Below are positions 21,314-49,992 of a DNA stretch of 64,000 bases, piece by piece. Below the pieces are notes generated by a model. That model had not been told where the DNA came from, ran no database searches, and was given only the letters and a program-made list of their open reading frames with translations. How positions within the stretch are numbered: the first letter of the stretch is position 1; every line of letters starts with the position of its first letter. The DNA lies in assembly GCA_030430385.1 (NCBI GenBank), contig JAUIFO010000001.1:124001-188000 (forward strand), given 5' to 3'. The stretch comes from Bacteroidia bacterium (GTDB lineage Bacteria; Bacteroidota; Bacteroidia; Flavobacteriales; Flavobacteriaceae). A program made the translations under genes and the position numbers.

Positions 21314-21559
21314 CGAATTTTGGTTTGAATGAAATGCATTCATGTGCTTTTAGTGACGATTCTGAAACGCTTTCCGAATGACATTTTATTCGATTAAAAG
21401 GGAATCTGGTGTAAATCCAGAGCTGTTCCCGCAACTGTAAGTTTATGTCAAACTTGTTTTGACACCTCATTATGTGAGTTATTATTTTCTTCAATACCAC
21501 TGGTTGAAAGACTGGGAAGGTGAAATAGTAAATAACAAGTCAGGAGACCTGCCAAATTC
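21314..21559 (+). ncRNA. Cobalamin (B12) riboswitch
   Basis: The 378-base gap 21257-21634 holds this element. Conserved parts are the GGGAATCTGGTGTAAATCC block (about 21399-21417), CCCGCAACTGTAAG at 21428-21441, a GGGAAGGTG segment near 21513, and the B12 box GTCAGGAGACCTGCC ending at 21553. The 5' GAATTTTGGT (from 21315) can pair with the 3' GCCAAATTC to close P1. It lies upstream of the BtuB-like receptor on the same strand. Bound adenosylcobalamin should repress that gene, probably at translation since no terminator follows. Confidence 0.93.
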
Positions 21560-21634
21560 AAACAAATAAGTCAAACTTTCGGGATAAAAGTTTTGGTGTG
21601 ATAAGTCATACTATTCCGAGTAATTTAAATTACA

Positions 21635-35127: not shown

Positions 35128-35823
35128 CTAGATATTGTTTAAAGCATCTACAAGTTGGGTTTTCTTGTTTCTACTCAAAGGAATCTCATAAGCGCCAACT
35201 TCAACGTTTTTACTATTAAATCGGTCAACCTTATCTAGGTTTACGATATAAGACTTATGGATTCTTAAAAACTTACCTTCAGGTAATTCCTTTTCAAAAG
35301 CTTTCATTGTAGATAAAACGACTAAGCTATTTTCTTCAGTAACTAGTTTTACATAGTCACCAAGCGCTTCGATCCATTTAATATCTTTGATGTAAACTTT
35401 ACGTTTTTTCAGGTTACTCTTCACAAAGATGTGTTCACCATCGGTTTCGTTAAAATCAAGCTTTAATTTATGTTGCTCAAGGGCTTTTTCTACAGATTGA
35501 TTAAATCGTTCCCTAGTAATAGGTTTCTGTAGGTAGTCTGTTGCATCATAGTTAAAAGCCTTAAACGCGTACTCGGTTTTTCCTGTAACGAAAATAATTT
35601 GGGGTTTGTTGTTGAGTACGTCCAGCAATTCAAAACCATTAAGAACTGGCATCTCAATATCAAGGAAGATCAAATCAACCTTATGAGTGTTAAGTCCATT
35701 TTTGGTTTCTAATGCGCTGCTGTATTCTGCTATAAGGTTAAGAGAGGAATGATTCTCTATTAACTTTACAATCGATAATCGTTGAATCGCAGAATCATCA
35801 ACTACTACACAGTTTAAAGTCAT
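35128..35823 (-). CDS. LytTR-family response regulator
   Basis: A 231-residue response regulator starting at the ATG at 35823 (the frame stays open upstream, but MTLNCVVVDD is the standard receiver start). The receiver domain spans about 1-118 with the phospho-acceptor Asp55 in LIFLDIEMPVLNG and Lys in the FVTGK motif. The LytTR DNA-binding domain is at about 130-231 (IKWIEALGDYVKLVT, FLRIHKSYIVNLDKVDRF). No histidine kinase gene is adjacent, so it is an orphan here. LytTR proteins bind direct repeats spaced about two helical turns. Confidence 0.93.
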   Translation of the reverse strand: MTLNCVVVDDSAIQRLSIVKLIENHSSLNLIAEYSSALETKNGLNTHKVDLIFLDIEMPVLNGFELLDVLNNKPQIIFVTGKTEYAFKAFNYDATDYLQKPITRERFNQSVEKALEQHKLKLDFNETDGEHIFVKSNLKKRKVYIKDIKWIEALGDYVKLVTEENSLVVLSTMKAFEKELPEGKFLRIHKSYIVNLDKVDRFNSKNVEVGAYEIPLSRNKKTQLVDALNNI

Positions 35824-35959
35824 AACATTATTATATTTTAGGTTAAGATATCGACAATAGTACAAAAAATTCGGACAAAAACCAAAAAACATCGGTAAAG
35901 TGTTAATTTTAACAAAATTTTAAGAAAATTATCTTACTAGGATTTTAAGGGCAAAAATG

Positions 35960-40747: not shown

Positions 40748-43700
40748 TTATTTTACTAAAACTTTCTTGGATACTGAACCGCTACCAGTATGCATTTTCA
40801 CAATATAAGTTCCAGAACTTAAATTCTTAACTTCATATTCAGAATAGTCCCCTTCTGAAATATTATCTATAGTATAAATTGATTGTCCAACAACATTGTA
40901 GACTTCAATTAACTTTACATCTTTATAATTAGGATTCAATAATACTAAGCTTTTTAATTCATTAGAGTAGAATATATCTATAGTGCTTAATTCATTATCA
41001 TCAATTCCTAAAGTTTCATTAGCATCTCTAAAAGTAATTTCAAATCGGTCTAAGTACTCACCAGCAGCAAGGAAGATATCGTAATCACTTTCTCTAAGGT
41101 TATGATACATATTGTTGTCAATATCATGAACAAAAATATCAATATCGTCAGGTACATTTTCAAGAGCATTAATGCTAATGGTGTTAATACCATCTGAATC
41201 GGTCTTTATACCAATAGGATACACAGAGTATTCGTCAGCTTCATCACTACCTTGAATAATGTATTTCCCGCCTTCGATCATCCAGTACATATCGTCCATT
41301 TGAACTTCGTTTACTTTTCCATCGTATCCTAAGTCGACAGCAGTAGAAGCATTAGGATCAATAGTAAGGAGTAATTGACGGTTGATTTCGTTTACTGTAT
41401 AGATACCAATTCTAAATTTCATACGCTCATCAGCTGAAGCGGCTTCGCCATCATCCTGACTAGCATTAGCTTGGCTATTTCTTATAAATACTGAAGTACC
41501 ACTATATGTGCCGTCTTCAATTTCAAAGACACGTTGATCATTTTCAAAAATAATTTGTCCGCCAGTATTTGCATCTACAAAGAATCCTTGTCCTACAGGA
41601 ATAAATTGACCAGGTGTTTTACGAGCAGAACCAGTGTTGCTAACTCCAGGCACAGGAACCCCTAAGGTTACTGATGGTGTACCACCAGATAAGTTCATTT
41701 GTGCATAGCCACCTTGATAATCAGCTAGAATATGGTTTCCGCCTCCCCAATGTTCCCAGAAATATAGCGTACCTGTTGTGACACCTAAGTTATCTGTTAT
41801 AAATTCTACAGCATCAATTGCAGAAGGGTAAGGGTTACCAACTAAGTAGTTGCTATTTGTGCTTAATGTTAATTCTATTTCTCCGTTATTTGGTTTTCCT
41901 CTGAAGATATAGTTTTCATCGTCAGTTATTGGACCAGTACCAGGACCTTTCATTGTAAATCCTTCACCTGCATAAATGCTACCATTACTTCTAACTTGTT
42001 GCCATGAAGAATAATCACCATCAGGAGAATTAGCAAACTTCCAGATCCAGTAATCAGCAATTCTTACTGGCGATGCAGTTCCGTTGTATCCTGTAGTGTT
42101 AAATCCTACATTTTGCATGACATCTGTAAGCGCATATCTATATTCATTGATTTCTTCATCAGTTTCACCAACAGGAGATGACCAATAGTTATACGTATAA
42201 GTATCAGCAGTTCCTTGTTGATCACGTTCTAGTCGTCCAGAACTTGCAACAGTTAAATCACTATTTTCAGTTTGAATTAATTGCGATTCACCTTCTAAAT
42301 CTATAGTTCCAGTAAGGCTTAAGTAGTGTGATACTGTAAGACCGAAACCTAAATTAGTTGTTGCATTAGTTAATCCATCAACTTCTAGAGTATTGCTATC
42401 TACAATAAGTCCTAAAAGCGATCTGTTCTTAGTAAAAGATGGTAAGTCTGTGTTAGAATTAATAGAGACATTATGACTTGTTCTAACAATATTCCAATCA
42501 ATAGTTTGATTACTGTCAACTATAGATGTGGTTCCTGCAGTAGTTTGTACATTTCCATTTGCCCATGTTGTTGCATCATTCCAATTACCAGCTTGCGTAG
42601 TTTCATAAGGAAGTGGTGCAGTTTGACGATCTACAGTATTTAAGTTTCTTAAGGCACCTTGATTTTGGTTGCCAGAAGCGTCTTCAGTATTTGTATAGGT
42701 GTACACAGACATAGGATAGTATCCAGCTAAATCTGACCAAGGGATTGTTCCTACCTCATTTTTAGTAATTGTAGAAGGTAATATATCACCAGACACAAAA
42801 TTACTATTGTCTTCAATTTCTTGGTTCATGATAAAGCGAAGTTGGTCTGGAGTTAATGCTCTGTCCCAAACTCTTACTTCATCAATATTTCCTCTAAAGT
42901 GTTGTGTTGGTGTTCCTTTACCAGCAGCAGCAATGTAGAATGATTCATCAGTGTCTACTGGAGCAGTTTTACCATCATTAATATCTTCAACACCATCAAT
43001 ATAAATTCTAGCAGTAGTACCATTATAGGTTACAGCAACTTGATGCCATTCATCATCTGGGATACTCGTGTTTGAAGTTAGAATTTGATTACTACCATTT
43101 TTCCAATAGATTTGTACAGTATTATCGTTTAATATCCTAAAGTCATATCCATCAGTAAAGGTTGTGTTTCTTTTTGATACGATTGATTTTGTTCCACTAT
43201 CTGCAGCATCTCTTTTAATCCAAGCAGAAATTGTAAATCCAGTTGGATCTAGGTCTAGTGCGTCTTCCATATCAACATAGTCAACAACACCATCAAAATA
43301 GATTGATCTTTCAACAATAATTTGTGGTGCATATCCAAATGTAATATACTTTGTATTGTCAAAATCGTATTCTGTTTCTAAGTTACCGTTTCCATCATCA
43401 GTCATTACTCTGTAATCTGCTGTAGGATCGAATACACCTGTACTTGAGATAAACATATAGTAATTTCCAGGAGGTGTAATATTTCTAATAGCATTTTGAG
43501 GAATTCTAACTTTTACAGTTGGAATGTCTCCACCGTTCTCAACAACTTTCCATACACGTTGCATAGCAGTAAAACTCACATCTGTGGTAAGCGCAGGAGT
43601 AATACCAGCACTCATATTTACAGTAATAGTTGATGAAGCAAGGTTTAGATCTGCACCATTATTACCCCAAACAAGGTATTCTTTGTCATTTAGAGTTGTG

Positions 43701-46700
43701 GCATTATCTGATTGGTTTAAATTGTTTGTATCGTAAATATCAGTTAAACCAAATGTAAGGATCCCTTCAGTTCTTCCGCTTCCATCAGAATCGTTATTAA
43801 CACTTCTAGATTGCTTTTGATTTAATTCAGAAGCATCATCTCTACCAATACCAGCAATATCATAATTGTATCCTGCATTAGCAGACTGATCCCAAATTAC
43901 AGTACCATCACTATCAACATAATCTTGAGAGACACCTTTTGCTCCAAGTGTGATACCATATTTGATTGCTAAATACGATTGAATTCTGTTACGTTCTTGA
44001 GTTAGATTTACATCATCTTTTCTTGCTGAATAGGTGATGACTTCTGCTACTCTAGCGTTAAGAGAAGCTTCCCAACCTTCAGAACGACCAATCCACCATC
44101 TTGCATCATTAGCATTCATATATTCAGCAATGTCATTTTGATAATCTTCAATATCATTTGCATTGTAATATAGTTCTTGTTGTGTGTCAGCAGTATTATT
44201 TCTTGTATTTATAATCCCAACATTGTCATAGCTTCCGCCACCAGTTTGGGCTACACCATATCCATCATTTGGATCGTTGTCATAAGAATCGTATGCATAA
44301 CAAATAACTTCATTGTTAACACGTCCAGTATAATCACCAAAACCAATTCCAGTTGCATCTGTTGCAGCTGACGTAATTTGAGCATCACTACAGAATACAT
44401 CCATAAATCCAAAAGAATTATTAATTGGAGTGTCATCTGGAATAATCACTAAAAAGAGATCTTGTGTGTAGAACCCATAATCACCTGATAAGAATTCTGT
44501 ACTTGTACTGTCATGAGAGTAATCTCCATCTGTTGAAACTGAGGAATATGAATTATCAAATTCGATTACTGGATTAAAGTTTACATTTTTTGTAGTGTTA
44601 TCGTAATATGTTGGTCTTTGATTTGAATTGTTAACCCTAGCATTACTACCTAGTCCTTGATCAATCCAAGACGACACTCTTTGACCACTAGTATAACTTA
44701 GGCCGTCATCAGCTTTAAGCCATAAAGATAAGTCTGCCGTAACTCCACCAGGTGCTACAGTAGGATTTGGTTTGTCTTCAATAGTGAAGTTGTCAATGGC
44801 AATGTCACTATAAATACTTCCGCCTGTTTCAGCTCTAACTCTCAGCTTGATGGTTTGTCCAATATAACTGCTAAGATCAATACTTATAGGAGTGAATGAC
44901 GAATTGGTATTATTGTGATTTTGACCTGAGTAAGTAAATAGTGTGGTTGGAAAATTCAATCCGTTGTCAGTACTTAACTCTACAGCAAATTCTCCTGTTC
45001 CACTCCCAAACATATGGTAAAAGAATGTTAAACGAGGATTAGTTGCACTAGTTAAATCAAAACACGGACTAAATAAAATAGCTTTACTATTTGTATTGCC
45101 ATTTGTTTCAATAAAAGCATAGGAGTTTCCATCTTGAGCTTCATTAGGTCCAGTAAATGAAGTTGGAGTAGAGCCAGAAGTTCTAGACCAATCAAAGTCA
45201 TCCTCTAAGCCTAAAAGACTGATACCTTGTATCCACTGACCGAAGCCAGATTCGAAGCTTTCAGAGTAAGGATAAGAAGAAACCGTAGTGACGCATACAC
45301 CTGCAGTTGTTCCTGTACCTTGAATATTAAAAGTATATGGGTTTTCATCACTGTCATTGTTAACAATACTAACAGTTGCTGTTCTGACACCTGTTGCACT
45401 TGGGTCAAATGTAATTTCAAAAGTCGTGTTATTAGAAGCAGGAACAGAAGCTGATGGACTAGATGTTACAGAGAAATCTCCAGCATTAGCACCAGATAAG
45501 GTAATTGCTCCTACAGTTAAAGCTGTAGTTCCTGTATTTTCAATTGTGAAGGTGTTTGGATTTGTAGATCCTGCTACAGCAATTGCACCAAAGTCGGTAT
45601 CGTCTGCTGCATCTGGGGTTGTATCTCCATCAGCAATTGATGTTCCATTTCCTCTAATATCAATTTCTGGTCCAGGCGCAACACCTGTACCTTGAATATC
45701 AAACGTGTATGGATTTTCATTACTGTCATCATTAGCTATGCTAACAGTAGCTGTTCTTAGACCAGCGGCACTAGGATCGAATGTAATATTGAAAGTTGTT
45801 CCACTTCCACTAGAAATAGGAGTTGTTGGATTTGTTGATACGTAAAAGTCTGCAGCATGAGCTCCAGTGATTGAAATATACGTTGGTCCAGATCCAGTTA
45901 AATTAAGATTAGAACATCCTAAGTTATCAATAACAAAAGCATTAACGTTTGTACCACCAGCGGTATTAACTGTACCAAAATCTGTATCGTCAGTTACACT
46001 AGGAGTTGTGTCACCATCAGTAATTGATGTTCCGTTTCCAGTTATGTCAATTTCAGAACCACCACCTGCGACATTAAAATATTCGGTAGTCCCACCAGAG
46101 TCTGTACCAGCACCATTATCGGTAAGTACGATTGTTCCTCCGGCTGTTACTGTAACATTAGAGGCGCCACCATTCCAACCATCACCATAAGAGTCATACA
46201 TAATGATGTAATAATTGTTTAAATCTGCAATACAGCCTAAGCTAACTGTTGTAGAATAGCTGTTATTACAGCATCCAGAATATCCATTATCAATAGTAGT
46301 AAGCAACACGCCAGACGGATTGTAGACTTCAACTCTATTTTCTGAAGACCAACTAGGCCAGTTTACTGAAACTTCTACGTTAGAATACGTTAGGTTAGTT
46401 CCAGTACCTTGTATATTAAAGTTATATGGGTTTTCGTCACTATCACTATTTACAATAGTAACAGTAGCAGTTCTTACACCTAAAGCACTAGGGTTAAAGG
46501 TTATGTCAAATGGAACACTTCCAAAAGGAGCAACAGAGCCAGGAGGACTGAGTGTTAATGTAAAGTCTGAAGCATGAGCACCAGAAATAGTTACTGAACT
46601 AATAGATAATGCAGGAGAACCGTTATTTTCAATTGTAAATGTATTTACATTAGTGCCAGCGGCAAGATCGACATTACCAAAATCAGTATCATCTGATACA

Positions 46701-47311
46701 TCTGGTGTCGTATCGCCATCAACAATACTCACACCATTACCTGTGATATTAATTTCTGGTCCTGCAGGACTGTAGCCTTCAATTAAAATATCATCGATGT
46801 ATGTATATTCACCGTTAGAACCTGCTGTACTTGAAAATCTAATTCGAGAATTAGAAGCTAAAGTGTGTGAAGCACTATTAATGTTATAGGTGAAGCTGTA
46901 GCTTGCTCCACTACCAACAGTAGTAAAATCTGTACCACGTGTGTAAGTGTAAAGTGTTGTCCAAGAGCTTCCATCATAATATTGAAGTCTAAAACCTTCA
47001 CCATTATCAACTCCAGAAAATTTTGCACAAAAACTTACATCTACATTAATAAACGTAGATAAGTCATAGTTTGGCGATGTCATCCTGTTTGAAAAAGTAG
47101 TGTTGTCTTTGGTATAAATAGAACCATTGCCACTACAAGACCAAGAAGAATTGGTTGATCTTCCTGCGTCTGAACCACCATCGGTCCAACCTTCTAAACC
47201 ACCTTCAAAGCCATGTGAGGCAACAGTAGTTTGCGAATAAGAAAAAAATGTCATTAATAGTAGGCTACATATTATAGCATACTTTACCTGAGGTAATGTA
47301 GAAATTTTCAT
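40748..47311 (-). CDS. Giant multidomain T9SS surface protein
   Basis: A 2187-residue secreted protein. Order: signal peptide (1-26); a jelly-roll-like domain (about 30-180); choice-of-anchor D (Hydin/ASPM-like) repeats at about 184-305, 417-540 and 545-668, each opening xEIxIxGNGxSIxDGDTTP; between the first two a YDSYGDGWNGG domain; a MAM-like domain (about 680-840); a long lectin-like domain opening ADLSLWLKADDGLSYTSGQ (about 855-1230); a LamG domain (about 1335-1500); more beta domains; and a T9SS type A tail (about 2100-2187, VYNVVGQSIYTIDN to KKVLVK). It should be an adhesin or matrix protein. Confidence 0.88.
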   Translation of the reverse strand: MKISTLPQVKYAIICSLLLMTFFSYSQTTVASHGFEGGLEGWTDGGSDAGRSTNSSWSCSGNGSIYTKDNTTFSNRMTSPNYDLSTFINVDVSFCAKFSGVDNGEGFRLQYYDGSSWTTLYTYTRGTDFTTVGSGASYSFTYNINSASHTLASNSRIRFSSTAGSNGEYTYIDDILIEGYSPAGPEINITGNGVSIVDGDTTPDVSDDTDFGNVDLAAGTNVNTFTIENNGSPALSISSVTISGAHASDFTLTLSPPGSVAPFGSVPFDITFNPSALGVRTATVTIVNSDSDENPYNFNIQGTGTNLTYSNVEVSVNWPSWSSENRVEVYNPSGVLLTTIDNGYSGCCNNSYSTTVSLGCIADLNNYYIIMYDSYGDGWNGGASNVTVTAGGTIVLTDNGAGTDSGGTTEYFNVAGGGSEIDITGNGTSITDGDTTPSVTDDTDFGTVNTAGGTNVNAFVIDNLGCSNLNLTGSGPTYISITGAHAADFYVSTNPTTPISSGSGTTFNITFDPSAAGLRTATVSIANDDSNENPYTFDIQGTGVAPGPEIDIRGNGTSIADGDTTPDAADDTDFGAIAVAGSTNPNTFTIENTGTTALTVGAITLSGANAGDFSVTSSPSASVPASNNTTFEITFDPSATGVRTATVSIVNNDSDENPYTFNIQGTGTTAGVCVTTVSSYPYSESFESGFGQWIQGISLLGLEDDFDWSRTSGSTPTSFTGPNEAQDGNSYAFIETNGNTNSKAILFSPCFDLTSATNPRLTFFYHMFGSGTGEFAVELSTDNGLNFPTTLFTYSGQNHNNTNSSFTPISIDLSSYIGQTIKLRVRAETGGSIYSDIAIDNFTIEDKPNPTVAPGGVTADLSLWLKADDGLSYTSGQRVSSWIDQGLGSNARVNNSNQRPTYYDNTTKNVNFNPVIEFDNSYSSVSTDGDYSHDSTSTEFLSGDYGFYTQDLFLVIIPDDTPINNSFGFMDVFCSDAQITSAATDATGIGFGDYTGRVNNEVICYAYDSYDNDPNDGYGVAQTGGGSYDNVGIINTRNNTADTQQELYYNANDIEDYQNDIAEYMNANDARWWIGRSEGWEASLNARVAEVITYSARKDDVNLTQERNRIQSYLAIKYGITLGAKGVSQDYVDSDGTVIWDQSANAGYNYDIAGIGRDDASELNQKQSRSVNNDSDGSGRTEGILTFGLTDIYDTNNLNQSDNATTLNDKEYLVWGNNGADLNLASSTITVNMSAGITPALTTDVSFTAMQRVWKVVENGGDIPTVKVRIPQNAIRNITPPGNYYMFISSTGVFDPTADYRVMTDDGNGNLETEYDFDNTKYITFGYAPQIIVERSIYFDGVVDYVDMEDALDLDPTGFTISAWIKRDAADSGTKSIVSKRNTTFTDGYDFRILNDNTVQIYWKNGSNQILTSNTSIPDDEWHQVAVTYNGTTARIYIDGVEDINDGKTAPVDTDESFYIAAAGKGTPTQHFRGNIDEVRVWDRALTPDQLRFIMNQEIEDNSNFVSGDILPSTITKNEVGTIPWSDLAGYYPMSVYTYTNTEDASGNQNQGALRNLNTVDRQTAPLPYETTQAGNWNDATTWANGNVQTTAGTTSIVDSNQTIDWNIVRTSHNVSINSNTDLPSFTKNRSLLGLIVDSNTLEVDGLTNATTNLGFGLTVSHYLSLTGTIDLEGESQLIQTENSDLTVASSGRLERDQQGTADTYTYNYWSSPVGETDEEINEYRYALTDVMQNVGFNTTGYNGTASPVRIADYWIWKFANSPDGDYSSWQQVRSNGSIYAGEGFTMKGPGTGPITDDENYIFRGKPNNGEIELTLSTNSNYLVGNPYPSAIDAVEFITDNLGVTTGTLYFWEHWGGGNHILADYQGGYAQMNLSGGTPSVTLGVPVPGVSNTGSARKTPGQFIPVGQGFFVDANTGGQIIFENDQRVFEIEDGTYSGTSVFIRNSQANASQDDGEAASADERMKFRIGIYTVNEINRQLLLTIDPNASTAVDLGYDGKVNEVQMDDMYWMIEGGKYIIQGSDEADEYSVYPIGIKTDSDGINTISINALENVPDDIDIFVHDIDNNMYHNLRESDYDIFLAAGEYLDRFEITFRDANETLGIDDNELSTIDIFYSNELKSLVLLNPNYKDVKLIEVYNVVGQSIYTIDNISEGDYSEYEVKNLSSGTYIVKMHTGSGSVSKKVLVK

Positions 47312-47353
47312 AAGCGGTTAAATTTTAGTTTGGGACTAAATAATTTAATAGTA

Positions 47354-47384
47354 CAAATATAGATTGCAACTCTATGAAATGCAA
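47354..47384 (-). promoter_or_regulatory. Promoter of the giant T9SS gene
   Basis: On the - strand, TTG (47382-47384), a 20-base spacer and TATATTTG (47354-47361) match the Bacteroidota consensus. The TTG lies inside the twin-repeat element, so a protein bound there would cover the -33 box. Leader about 35 bases. Confidence 0.65.
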
Positions 47385-47403
47385 AAAAAATCGACGAAAT
47401 GCA
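47372..47403 (-). promoter_or_regulatory. Twin TGCATTTC direct repeat, copy 1
   Basis: Read leftward: TGCATTTCGTCG, eight T's, then GCATTTCATAG. Two GCATTTC units are 20 bases apart. The 32-base block is identical to 49961-49992 except for one base. It starts 60 bases upstream of the ATG. Confidence 0.6.
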
Positions 47404-47438
47404 CAATAATTTTTTAAGTAATTGAAAATCAATTAAAT

Positions 47439-47474
47439 AAAAAAGCTGAAATTTCATACAATTTCAGCTTTTTT
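47439..47474 (-). terminator. Terminator of the M14 peptidase gene
   Basis: The long stem aaaaaagctgaaatt/aatttcagctttttt, with a short loop, gives a T-run in the leftward direction. It lies 21 bases beyond the M14 stop. Confidence 0.85.
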
Positions 47475-47495
47475 AAATGAAAGTAGAATAATGAA

Positions 47496-49889
47496 TTATT
47501 GTTTTATGAGTTGTTTAACGGTAGACTTATTACTTTCATTATCAGATATTTTCAAGAAATAAGATCCTTGAACAATATTTTGAATATCAGTTAAGCTGTA
47601 GGTGCCATTATCGATTAGCACATTAGATAGACTAAGAATGGTTCGACCACTGATATCATATAATTCAATATCAATATTTGAGCTTACCGAACTAGGCATT
47701 TTTATATGAATTGAATTATTAAATGGGTTAGGAAATACACTTACATTGTCTAATGTATTATCTTCAAGACCAAGTGTATCTTCAACAGTAACGACCACTT
47801 CTTTTCTAGCACTTTTGATATCTTCAAGATTCCAGTCATAGAAGAAATAGTAATACGTTAAGTCATTTAAATTGTTATCTTTAATTGTAATAGATCCATT
47901 GGTATATGGATAAGCTGTACCAGCAGTAACATTATTTCTCCATAATCTAAATCCGGTAGACAATTCAGCGCTAACCAATCTTAAATCATTAGCAACAGGA
48001 ATTACAAAGTTGAGTTCAATTTGTTGTACACCAGAATTTTCAACTAGAATAAGTCTTGAATCTAATACATTTCCAGAACCATCTTGAAGTTGTACTTCCA
48101 TTTCACCTGTGTTTTGAGCATTGATGGTTACTTCTTTCAGCATAGCAGATTCAGTTGCATCAAATACTAAGTAACGATCTGTAGTTCCGCCAGCGAAGAA
48201 ACTTCCATTAGCAGAATGGTTTGTAGAACCAACATTTGGTTTCGTAATAACATCCTCAACAAAGTATGATGTTGTTTCAGTAAGGTTAGGAGTCGTATAA
48301 CTAGATCCAGTTGCAAGCGGTGTATTATCATTAGCACTTGCATACCAATTAAGTGTTCCATTACCTGTTGCCGTTAAGGTGGTATTATCATTTTCATTAA
48401 TTGTTACATCACTAGCAATTGGTTCGTTAGTTTCTGCAACCATAGTTACATTTTGAACTGTTTTTACATTATCTGTAATTGAAACAGAAATGGTTTGAGT
48501 CACATAACCAGGTGCTTCAAATGTAACATTATAAGAACCTCCTTTTAAAAGTCGGTAATAATCTCCTAAATCTTTGTTTGAAAATACAAATGAATTTAGG
48601 GCATCATGACCTGCAATAGATACTTTGGCAACAACTGGATTTCCAGATTCGTCTGTAACGATTCCTTGTAAACCATAGTTTACTTGTTTCATGTAATCTA
48701 AAAATGCTTGTCTGTTATAGGTCCAATGGTTATTAATGGCGTTACCTTGAATCCATTTTGTATCCGATAATTCAACGACCACTTCACGACCACTTCTATA
48801 ATAATTCATATAGTCTTGTCTACCACCATAAACGCGGTACCATTCTGCACCATGAGTAACACCTGGGCTAGGATACACATCAGCATCTTCATCATCAATC
48901 ATATAGCCATTAGGGCTATTGTTTTGTGCATGTGTAGCATATTCTACAGAAATATATTCGAACCAATCATGATCTGCATGTTGATCATAAGTATTGTCAT
49001 AAGGATAATTTACTAATTCTGTGCCACCATGAAAGTTGGCAGACATTACAATATTGTGTGCTTCTTCAAACTTCATAAATGCAAGTGTCTCAGGCTCGTA
49101 GTTACCATCATAATGTAAACCTGCTACATTATCAGCATAATTTCTATTAAGGTCTTGTCCGTTAGCATTTGCTCTAATAGGATTTGTTATGGTGTTATTT
49201 CCTGCATTTCTGTAAGCTCCATCAGGATTTGCTAATGGATTGATATAAATCACAGTATTACTAACAATATCTTTTACTTCAGGATCAGAATCATAATTAC
49301 TTAATAAATAATCTGCTAATCGAATCATAAGAGGAAAACCAGCTAATTCATCACCATGCATTGATGAGGTGTACATAAATTCTGGTTCAGCTTCATTAGT
49401 TCCAATATTGTCACTGATCTTTAGCATTAGAAGTTGTCTTCCATTAACAGAGTTTCCAATAGATTCCAGAGAACATAAATTAGGATAGGTTGCAACAAAA
49501 TAATTCATTTTGTCAACGTATTGTGTGTATGTTGGGTATGCATTCCAATCAACATCCCAAGCTTGTGTATCTTCGGTATTATTGATACTCGTAACAAATG
49601 TATTGTCATTATCGTTTACGTAATACGGTAAACCATAATTTAAAAATTGTTGAAAGGTATCTGCATTTGCAAAGGCTTCTATCTCTAGAGTTTGATGATT
49701 GACCTTATGTCCTATAGATAGGAACTCTGATATCTCTTGTACTTGTTGTTCGCTATTTGCAGTAAATACAAAGCAAACTTCTCCACGATCATTAAGATAC
49801 TGTTGGGCTTTTTGTAAGTCGGTAATTTGAGCATGTACGCTTAAACCAATTAGTAAAAGTAGTACAAACAAGAATGTAGTTTTTCTCAT
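47496..49889 (-). CDS. M14-family zinc carboxypeptidase, T9SS-secreted
   Basis: A 797-residue secreted enzyme. After the signal peptide (1-20, ending VHAQ) comes an N-terminal propeptide-like segment. The M14 catalytic domain (about 115-395) has zinc ligands in SSMHGDELAG (HxxE) and SANFHGG, the substrate-binding Arg in DLNRNYADN, and the catalytic Glu in VVVELSDTKW. Then follow a CarboxypepD_reg-like domain (about 405-480), an Ig-like domain, a beta domain and a T9SS type A tail (VSVFPNPFNNS to VKQLIKQ). It should trim C-terminal residues from peptides outside the cell. Confidence 0.93.
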   Translation of the reverse strand: MRKTTFLFVLLLLIGLSVHAQITDLQKAQQYLNDRGEVCFVFTANSEQQVQEISEFLSIGHKVNHQTLEIEAFANADTFQQFLNYGLPYYVNDNDNTFVTSINNTEDTQAWDVDWNAYPTYTQYVDKMNYFVATYPNLCSLESIGNSVNGRQLLMLKISDNIGTNEAEPEFMYTSSMHGDELAGFPLMIRLADYLLSNYDSDPEVKDIVSNTVIYINPLANPDGAYRNAGNNTITNPIRANANGQDLNRNYADNVAGLHYDGNYEPETLAFMKFEEAHNIVMSANFHGGTELVNYPYDNTYDQHADHDWFEYISVEYATHAQNNSPNGYMIDDEDADVYPSPGVTHGAEWYRVYGGRQDYMNYYRSGREVVVELSDTKWIQGNAINNHWTYNRQAFLDYMKQVNYGLQGIVTDESGNPVVAKVSIAGHDALNSFVFSNKDLGDYYRLLKGGSYNVTFEAPGYVTQTISVSITDNVKTVQNVTMVAETNEPIASDVTINENDNTTLTATGNGTLNWYASANDNTPLATGSSYTTPNLTETTSYFVEDVITKPNVGSTNHSANGSFFAGGTTDRYLVFDATESAMLKEVTINAQNTGEMEVQLQDGSGNVLDSRLILVENSGVQQIELNFVIPVANDLRLVSAELSTGFRLWRNNVTAGTAYPYTNGSITIKDNNLNDLTYYYFFYDWNLEDIKSARKEVVVTVEDTLGLEDNTLDNVSVFPNPFNNSIHIKMPSSVSSNIDIELYDISGRTILSLSNVLIDNGTYSLTDIQNIVQGSYFLKISDNESNKSTVKQLIKQ

Positions 49890-49960
49890 CTTAAGTAGGT
49901 GTTTAGGGTAAATTTGGATTTTAATTTGAGGCTAATATATTATTTTTTTTGAATAATCAT

Positions 49961-49992
49961 CTATGAAATGCAAAAAAAATCGATGAAATGCA
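49961..49992 (-). promoter_or_regulatory. Twin TGCATTTC direct repeat, copy 2
   Basis: Same 32-base block as 47372-47403 with one base different (TGCATTTCATCG instead of GTCG). It starts 71 bases upstream of the M14 peptidase ATG. No good TAnnTTTG box stands at the matching distance here. Confidence 0.6.

Follow-up and report, generated by a model that had tools for sequence, protein, structure and literature searches.

In the 64,000-nucleotide stretch of DNA analysed here (the window), two large genes for proteins with a T9SS export signal are each preceded by nearly the same 32-base block, which raises the question of what this block is and which protein might read it. We propose that an orphan LytTR response regulator (L021), encoded about 12 kb away, uses it as its operator and would govern T9SS-exported surface proteins and also its own gene. 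On sequence grounds, we put the probability of this reading at roughly 0.7. The features concerned are collected in Table 1.

Table 1. Positions in the window of the repeated blocks, their neighbouring genes and the proposed regulator
Feature	Position	Strand	Remarks
Putative operator, copy 1	47372..47403	-	two GCATTTC half-sites, 20-bp period, T8 tract
Putative operator, copy 2	49961..49992	-	
TTG within copy 1	47382..47384	-	fits a -33 element
-7 box TATATTTG of copy 1	47354..47361	-	offset +21 from the operator
-7-like box TATATTAG of copy 2	49932..49939	-	offset +32, about one helical turn farther
Target 1 (predicted)	40748..47311	-	2187-aa surface protein; Ig-like, MAM and laminin-G domains; Por_Secre_tail T9SS signal
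Target 2 (predicted)	47496..49889	-	M14 zinc carboxypeptidase; Por_Secre_tail T9SS signal
Orphan LytTR response regulator (L021), proposed cognate	35128..35823	-	start set from orthologs; ORF runs to 35892
Degenerate putative operator, regulator promoter	35872..35903	-	same register in 30/30 close orthologs
-7-like box TACTATTG, regulator gene	35855..35862	-	offset +21, like targets of the first kind

Both 32-base blocks of the preliminary description were recovered, agreeing in 31 of 32 bases, and on the minus strand either of them reads TGCATTTC[G/A]TCGATTTTTTTTGCATTTCATAG. As had been described, each holds the unit GCATTTC twice, the second beginning 20 bases after the first, with eight T in between; 60 and 71 bases, respectively, separate the blocks from the start codons at 47311 and 49889, and a -33-like TTG lies inside the first copy. 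A search of the window allowing up to 3 mismatches returned 2 matches, which were the blocks themselves, compared to a mean of 0.01 in dinucleotide shuffles (n = 100), with 0 of the 100 shuffles reproducing the blocks. These shuffles, together with reversed-pattern controls, exclude a chance origin. The preliminary description had also considered that a recent duplication of the promoter region might explain the pair. The flanks of the two copies are alike in only 37 and 38 of 120 bases (about 31%), and because this is the background level we reject such a duplication. We found no sign of an RNA element at the motif, with no match there when Rfam covariance models were run on the window and seven loci, a Flavo-1-type element included. 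The only matches at gathering score in this set were one tRNA and one cobalamin riboswitch (RF00174, at window positions 21334-21570).

Genome-wide, the 32-base pattern with up to 3 mismatches was found at 3 places and its reversed version at 0, and a shorter, looser pattern gave 9 places against 1 reversed match. A model built from 40 of the 65 scored sites (R2) detected at least 11 places at E < 3e-4 in the 3.2-Mb genome, both blocks included. All R2 counts are lower bounds and its zeros may be misses, since in each genome 150 candidates were scored out of several thousand that a first look had yielded. Besides the blocks, R2 pointed to sites upstream of a second M14 peptidase gene, before a large ORF (L009) and two small proteins (L010 and L011, the latter with a poor second half-site) whose starts all resemble signal peptides, between porX and tsaE, and, with several half-sites, at the gene of a 4Fe-4S mono-cluster protein (PF06902). 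One of the 11 places, inside the hutH coding sequence, may be due to chance. Weaker places (E 0.02-0.05) were located before an ECF sigma gene and before a gene of a 438-aa family whose members in relatives carry full motif sites upstream.

In our own genome, three to four half-sites in a row precede a small 4Fe-4S (Fer4_19) protein gene (L227/L234, contig C25 near 214197). Three genera have the motif in the space that separates porX from tsaE (L003 1501-1532, L048 and L166; the two genes were named by family search in L003 only), and these copies point away from tsaE. A motif or half-motif also lies before an ECF sigma gene, not matched to SigP, and after an ABC transporter in L232 and L049.

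Allowing up to 2 mismatches to a strict pattern, we found the motif in 20 of 57 genomes, our own included, and in the family as a whole in 117 of 397 genomes and 84 of 237 genera, while the reversed control gave 0 in both searches. Judged by its sequence, the block is a conserved Flavobacteriaceae promoter element. The 66 sites that we collected (7 from our own genome, plus 29 and 30 from the 57-genome and 397-genome searches) gave the consensus TGYATTTCRTCGATnTTTTTTGCATTTYATnGA. The 59 foreign sites are the best matches among the matches listed, some of them mutually orthologous, and are not a random sample; two weak matches of our own genome (L008, which lies within the hutH coding sequence, and L012) were excluded. 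Conservation extends outside the search patterns: the first G is preceded by a T in 60 of 66 sites, and the second repeat is followed by a G in 47 and an A in 52.

The preliminary description had expected the element to be linked to gene starts rather than to occur at random sites, and this holds: in 55 of the 66 sites a start on the same strand follows within 30-130 bp, compared to 4 of 66 when the opposite strand is read and 302 of 2000 when places are drawn at random. By a crude rule, a signal-peptide-like ORF lies downstream of 60 sites, and in 53 cases it starts at a distance of 30-130 bp, while the opposite strand gave 8 of 66 (1 of 66 at that distance) and random places in the window 227 of 2000 (57 of 2000). 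The six sites lacking such an ORF comprise the porX/tsaE copies (L006, L048 and L166), the ECF sigma gene with its non-ATG start (L049), L141 and L165. Pfam searches of the 60 downstream proteins, many of them cut at the end of the locus, identified HYDIN-type Ig domains in 12, M14 peptidases in 11, InhA-like MAM domains in 7, leucine-rich repeats in 3 and a SprB repeat in 1.

Spacing to the promoter is also constrained. Counted from the final base of TTTTTTG, a TAnnTTTG box is found at exactly +21 in 23 of 66 sites, with a maximum of 3 at any single offset in 500 mononucleotide shuffles, and a TAnnTT[TA]G box is found at +31 or +32 in another register in 14 of 66. Counting both registers, which differ by about one helical turn, 37 of 66 sites carry a -7-like box and 29 have neither kind; copy 1 of the window belongs to the first register (+21) and copy 2 to the second (+31/32). 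The in-register boxes are sigma-A-like. According to the conservation of the sites, the -7 spacing and the placement before genes for exported proteins, co-regulation by one DNA-binding protein, as suggested in the preliminary description, appears probable.

Between the -7 box and the ATG of the first target, at window positions 47309-47345, we also noticed by eye a conserved leader resembling TTAGTCCCAAACTnAAATTTAACCGCTTATG. Comparable leaders, upstream of large surface-protein genes in several genera, are present at L029, L030, L033, L034, L038, L039, L043 and L045, and further at L050, L054, L138, L145, L147 and L157. This leader is possibly a translation or RNA-level element.

As for the nature of the binding protein, the half-site is that of a known LytTR operator. 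The available excerpt of PMC4847170 describes YpdB (annotated PyrR), an E. coli LytTR regulator that is paired with the pyruvate-responsive kinase YpdA and induces yhjX, whose operator consists of GGCATTTCAT twice with a 21-bp period. Our consensus half-site, TGCATTTCAT, is equal to GGCATTTCAT in 9 of 10 bases, as are three of the four half-sites of the window, the distal one of copy 1 (GCATTTCGT) having one further difference and thus 8 of 10. LytTR operators are described in the same excerpt as two repeats of 9-11 nt with spacers of 11-13 nt, with no common consensus among those of AgrA and others, and the GCATTTCAT-like direct repeats found here, with an 11-nt spacer and a 20-bp period, fit this format. 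The match to the YpdB half-site, as far as that excerpt defines it (PMC4847170), argues for the LytTR-type binder that the preliminary description had put forward. Choosing the regulator by similarity of its LytTR domain to that of YpdB was tried and gave no signal: YpdB has 25 of 109 domain residues in common with the protein encoded at 35128, and 18-34 of 109 with the other LytTR proteins.

There are 16 LytTR genes in the genome. The product of the one at 35128 contains a LytTR domain (PF04397, E 5.8e-19) and a receiver domain (PF00072), and no kinase gene was found among its scanned neighbours, which include PriA, ribosomal proteins S6/L9, DUF6495, an FtsX-like permease and histidyl-tRNA synthetase. 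LytTR genes were read in four of seven motif-bearing genomes (4/4 in G176, 8/8 in G141, 6/7 in G073 and 7/8 in G219) and in two of six others (6/8 in G062 and 9/10 in G093). The four of G176 are orthologs of L013, L017, L020 and L021; all eight of G141 were fetched, two of them having no match above the cut-off, and no ortholog of L013 is among them. Hence, L017, L020 and L021 remain, and with orthologs also in G073 and G219 they are 3 of the 16 with orthologs in all four compared motif-bearing genomes. The three are present as well in G062 and G093, which are motif-free by the strict pattern and in which R2 found at least 2 and at least 5 sites, respectively.

Evidence on L021 itself comes from its promoter. 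A motif variant upstream of the gene was initially seen in the same register in seven genera, and the stretch is not coding because it has in-frame stops in several of them. We scored the 220 bp before the ATG in 30 close orthologs from 19 genera, our own gene among them (95-100% identity), and in all 30 the best place was at -77 to -81. Its scores range from 2.7 to 22.8 (7.4 for our own gene); random 232-bp stretches of the window have their median at -33.8 and their 99% level at -13.0, and most target sites score 33-59. The other 15 LytTR promoters of the genome showed no motif-like site, with best scores from -27 to -48. When the paired half-sites were scored without the T tract, 28 of 30 exceeded the random 99% level and 19 of 30 exceeded the best of 2000 random stretches, while single half-sites passed the 99% level in just 2 of 30 and 1 of 30. 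We call the site degenerate because each half-site alone is no better than random. A -7-like box is located at +21 in 28 of the 30 promoters and at +20 in the other 2. The full motif was found at the regulator promoter in 0 of 20 genomes with weaker orthologs, all best scores being below 0. Past the -7-like box, a further leader stretch, TTGTCGATATCTTAACC (window 35840-35862), is conserved in most of the 30 orthologs; it could represent either one more half-site, the third, or a signal in the leader.

The motif and the orthologs of the 35128 gene also tend to occur together. Ignoring kinship among genomes, the strict pattern found the motif in 76 of 124 genomes with an ortholog of at least 86% identity, in 39 of 170 with a weaker match (E 1e-129 to 1e-60), and in 2 of 103 without a match at E 1e-60, these two being of one genus and 84-87% complete. 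In genomes missed by the strict pattern, R2 detected sites in at least 10 of 12 with a high-identity ortholog, at least 7 of 10 with a weaker match and at least 1 of 10 without a match, where the positive genome is 81% complete. G058 and G137 have a high-identity ortholog and no R2 match among the 150 candidates scored, so they may be misses; the LytTR promoter of G058 (L267) keeps the degenerate site all the same. Going by the matches listed, 34 of 55 genomes have a motif site no more than 40 kb from the ortholog, and 30 have one within 25 kb; in 18 of the remaining 21, the listed sites are on contigs other than that of the ortholog. We estimate that chance would give such linkage in about 5% of cases at about two sites per genome. 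This linkage is inherited synteny and not independent evidence. By shared orthologs, linkage and the site at its own promoter, the orphan LytTR at 35128, which the preliminary description had mentioned, appears as the best of the 16 candidates.

One could argue that a different LytTR protein of the same genome, most likely L017 or L020, binds the operator. Their orthologs (75-85% identity) are found in G176, G073, G141 and G219 and are as widespread as those of L021 across the six compared genomes, and the LytTR domain sequences do not tell which protein favours GCATTTCAT. However, no motif-like site precedes either gene in our genome or in six others, the best scores being between -22 and -45, and both genes lie outside the window, whereas L021 has the proximity to listed motif sites given above. 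We therefore consider this alternative unlikely. The histidine kinase and LytTR pair of L022 was considered first because of its adjacency to the motif, as it lies directly before one copy that is followed by a PID-CTERM-like small protein. The same order, with the motif intact or degraded, was observed in L010/L022, L052, L058, L060, L062 and L063 (the PID_CTERM match in L052 is below the cut-off, and the L010 kinase was recognised by eye); the copy in L052 adjoins the pair as it does here, and copies of falling quality follow in L058, L063, L060 and L062. Yet L022 orthologs are common without the motif: in the 30 named genomes searched, motif matches were confined to the 22 whose ortholog is at least 64% identical, and 6 of these 22 had one, about the family rate. 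Moreover, motif-bearing G176, with its four LytTR genes, has no L022 ortholog, and the L022 gene has no upstream site (score -47.6). On these grounds the pair was set aside as the cognate system, a role that we hold to be very improbable.

A binder of another class, for example by a PorX/SigP route, or a promoter feature with no dedicated binder, would agree with the motif copies between porX and tsaE in the three genera and with the control of Porphyromonas T9SS genes by PorXY-SigP, as given in the available part of PMC4800418. Against this, the element looks, by eye, unlike the SigP motif (PMC4800418) and the sigma-ECF CGT box of Flavobacterium psychrophilum (PMC9723704), as given in the available parts of both papers, the in-register -7 box is sigma-A-like, and the half-site equals a known LytTR site. 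We give this explanation little chance. Finally, 32 near-identical bases occurring twice within 2.6 kb could have nothing to do with regulation, the blocks being a dispersed repeat or the result of promoter copying. The background identity of the flanks speaks against it, as does the consistent placement, and it is contradicted by the conservation of the motif across genera, which leaves it a negligible probability.

Regulation by L021, the reading that we prefer, would operate as follows. Each of the two GCATTTCAT-like half-sites would be occupied by one LytTR domain; at a distance of 20 bp (two helical turns), both domains would sit on the same side of the double helix, and the half-site nearer to the promoter would overlap the -33 element. 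The regulator, presumably phosphorylated by a kinase encoded elsewhere, would then recruit RNA polymerase to the sigma-A promoters of the T9SS-exported surface proteins, and would also bind its own promoter, where the site is weaker, with a weaker activation of the gene. The motif, its conservation, placement and spacing, the YpdB half-site match and the degenerate site at the regulator promoter are computed; binding, activation over repression, autoregulation and phosphorylation are what we infer, the activation because of the site placement and the analogy with YpdB.

To our knowledge, how flavobacteria choose their T9SS cargo, adhesins and peptidases among it, is largely open. The LytTR regulator class and its direct-repeat operator architecture are already known, and a search of the open-access literature found no earlier description of this regulon, of its breadth in Flavobacteriaceae or of its assignment to the 35128 gene. 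We lean slightly towards a broader view in which an autoregulated orphan LytTR protein, its gene linked to one of its largest targets, would act in much of the Flavobacteriaceae as a family-level master switch for adhesins and peptidases that the T9SS exports to the surface, using the same half-site as enterobacterial YpdB and separate from PorXY-SigP, which it would touch at the porX-side site. With the operator conserved and a candidate regulator named, a regulon can be predicted in dozens of genera. If true, a LytTR regulator would be central to surface-protein control in environmental bacteria; the class is described as found mainly in pathogens in the available part of PMC4227749.

Among known systems, the closest in its DNA site, going by the available excerpt of PMC4847170, is the YpdB/yhjX operator, also a direct repeat of a GGCATTTCAT-type half-site, with a period of 21 bp there and 20 bp here. 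Unlike YpdA/YpdB, there is no kinase gene among the scanned neighbours of our candidate regulator, and its likely targets are T9SS-exported. The operators of AgrA and other LytTR proteins, as described there, are likewise two direct repeats, while organism and targets differ. With regard to T9SS genes, the promoters described in the available parts of PMC9723704 and PMC4800418 (PorXY-SigP, sigma-54, SM5 and ECF) are mostly those of machinery or gliding operons. The PorY-PorX-SigP route of Porphyromonas gingivalis resembles our case in being a form of T9SS regulation, and one motif copy here adjoins porX, but SigP governs genes for secretion components through another motif (PMC4800418, as far as available), whereas here the genes are mainly those of exported proteins. 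LytTR does not appear in the available part of the Flavobacterium psychrophilum promoter study (PMC9723704). The SM4-SM6 promoters given there are also classes tied to gliding and T9SS genes, but they are sigma-factor motifs near the start site, while the element described here is an upstream direct repeat.
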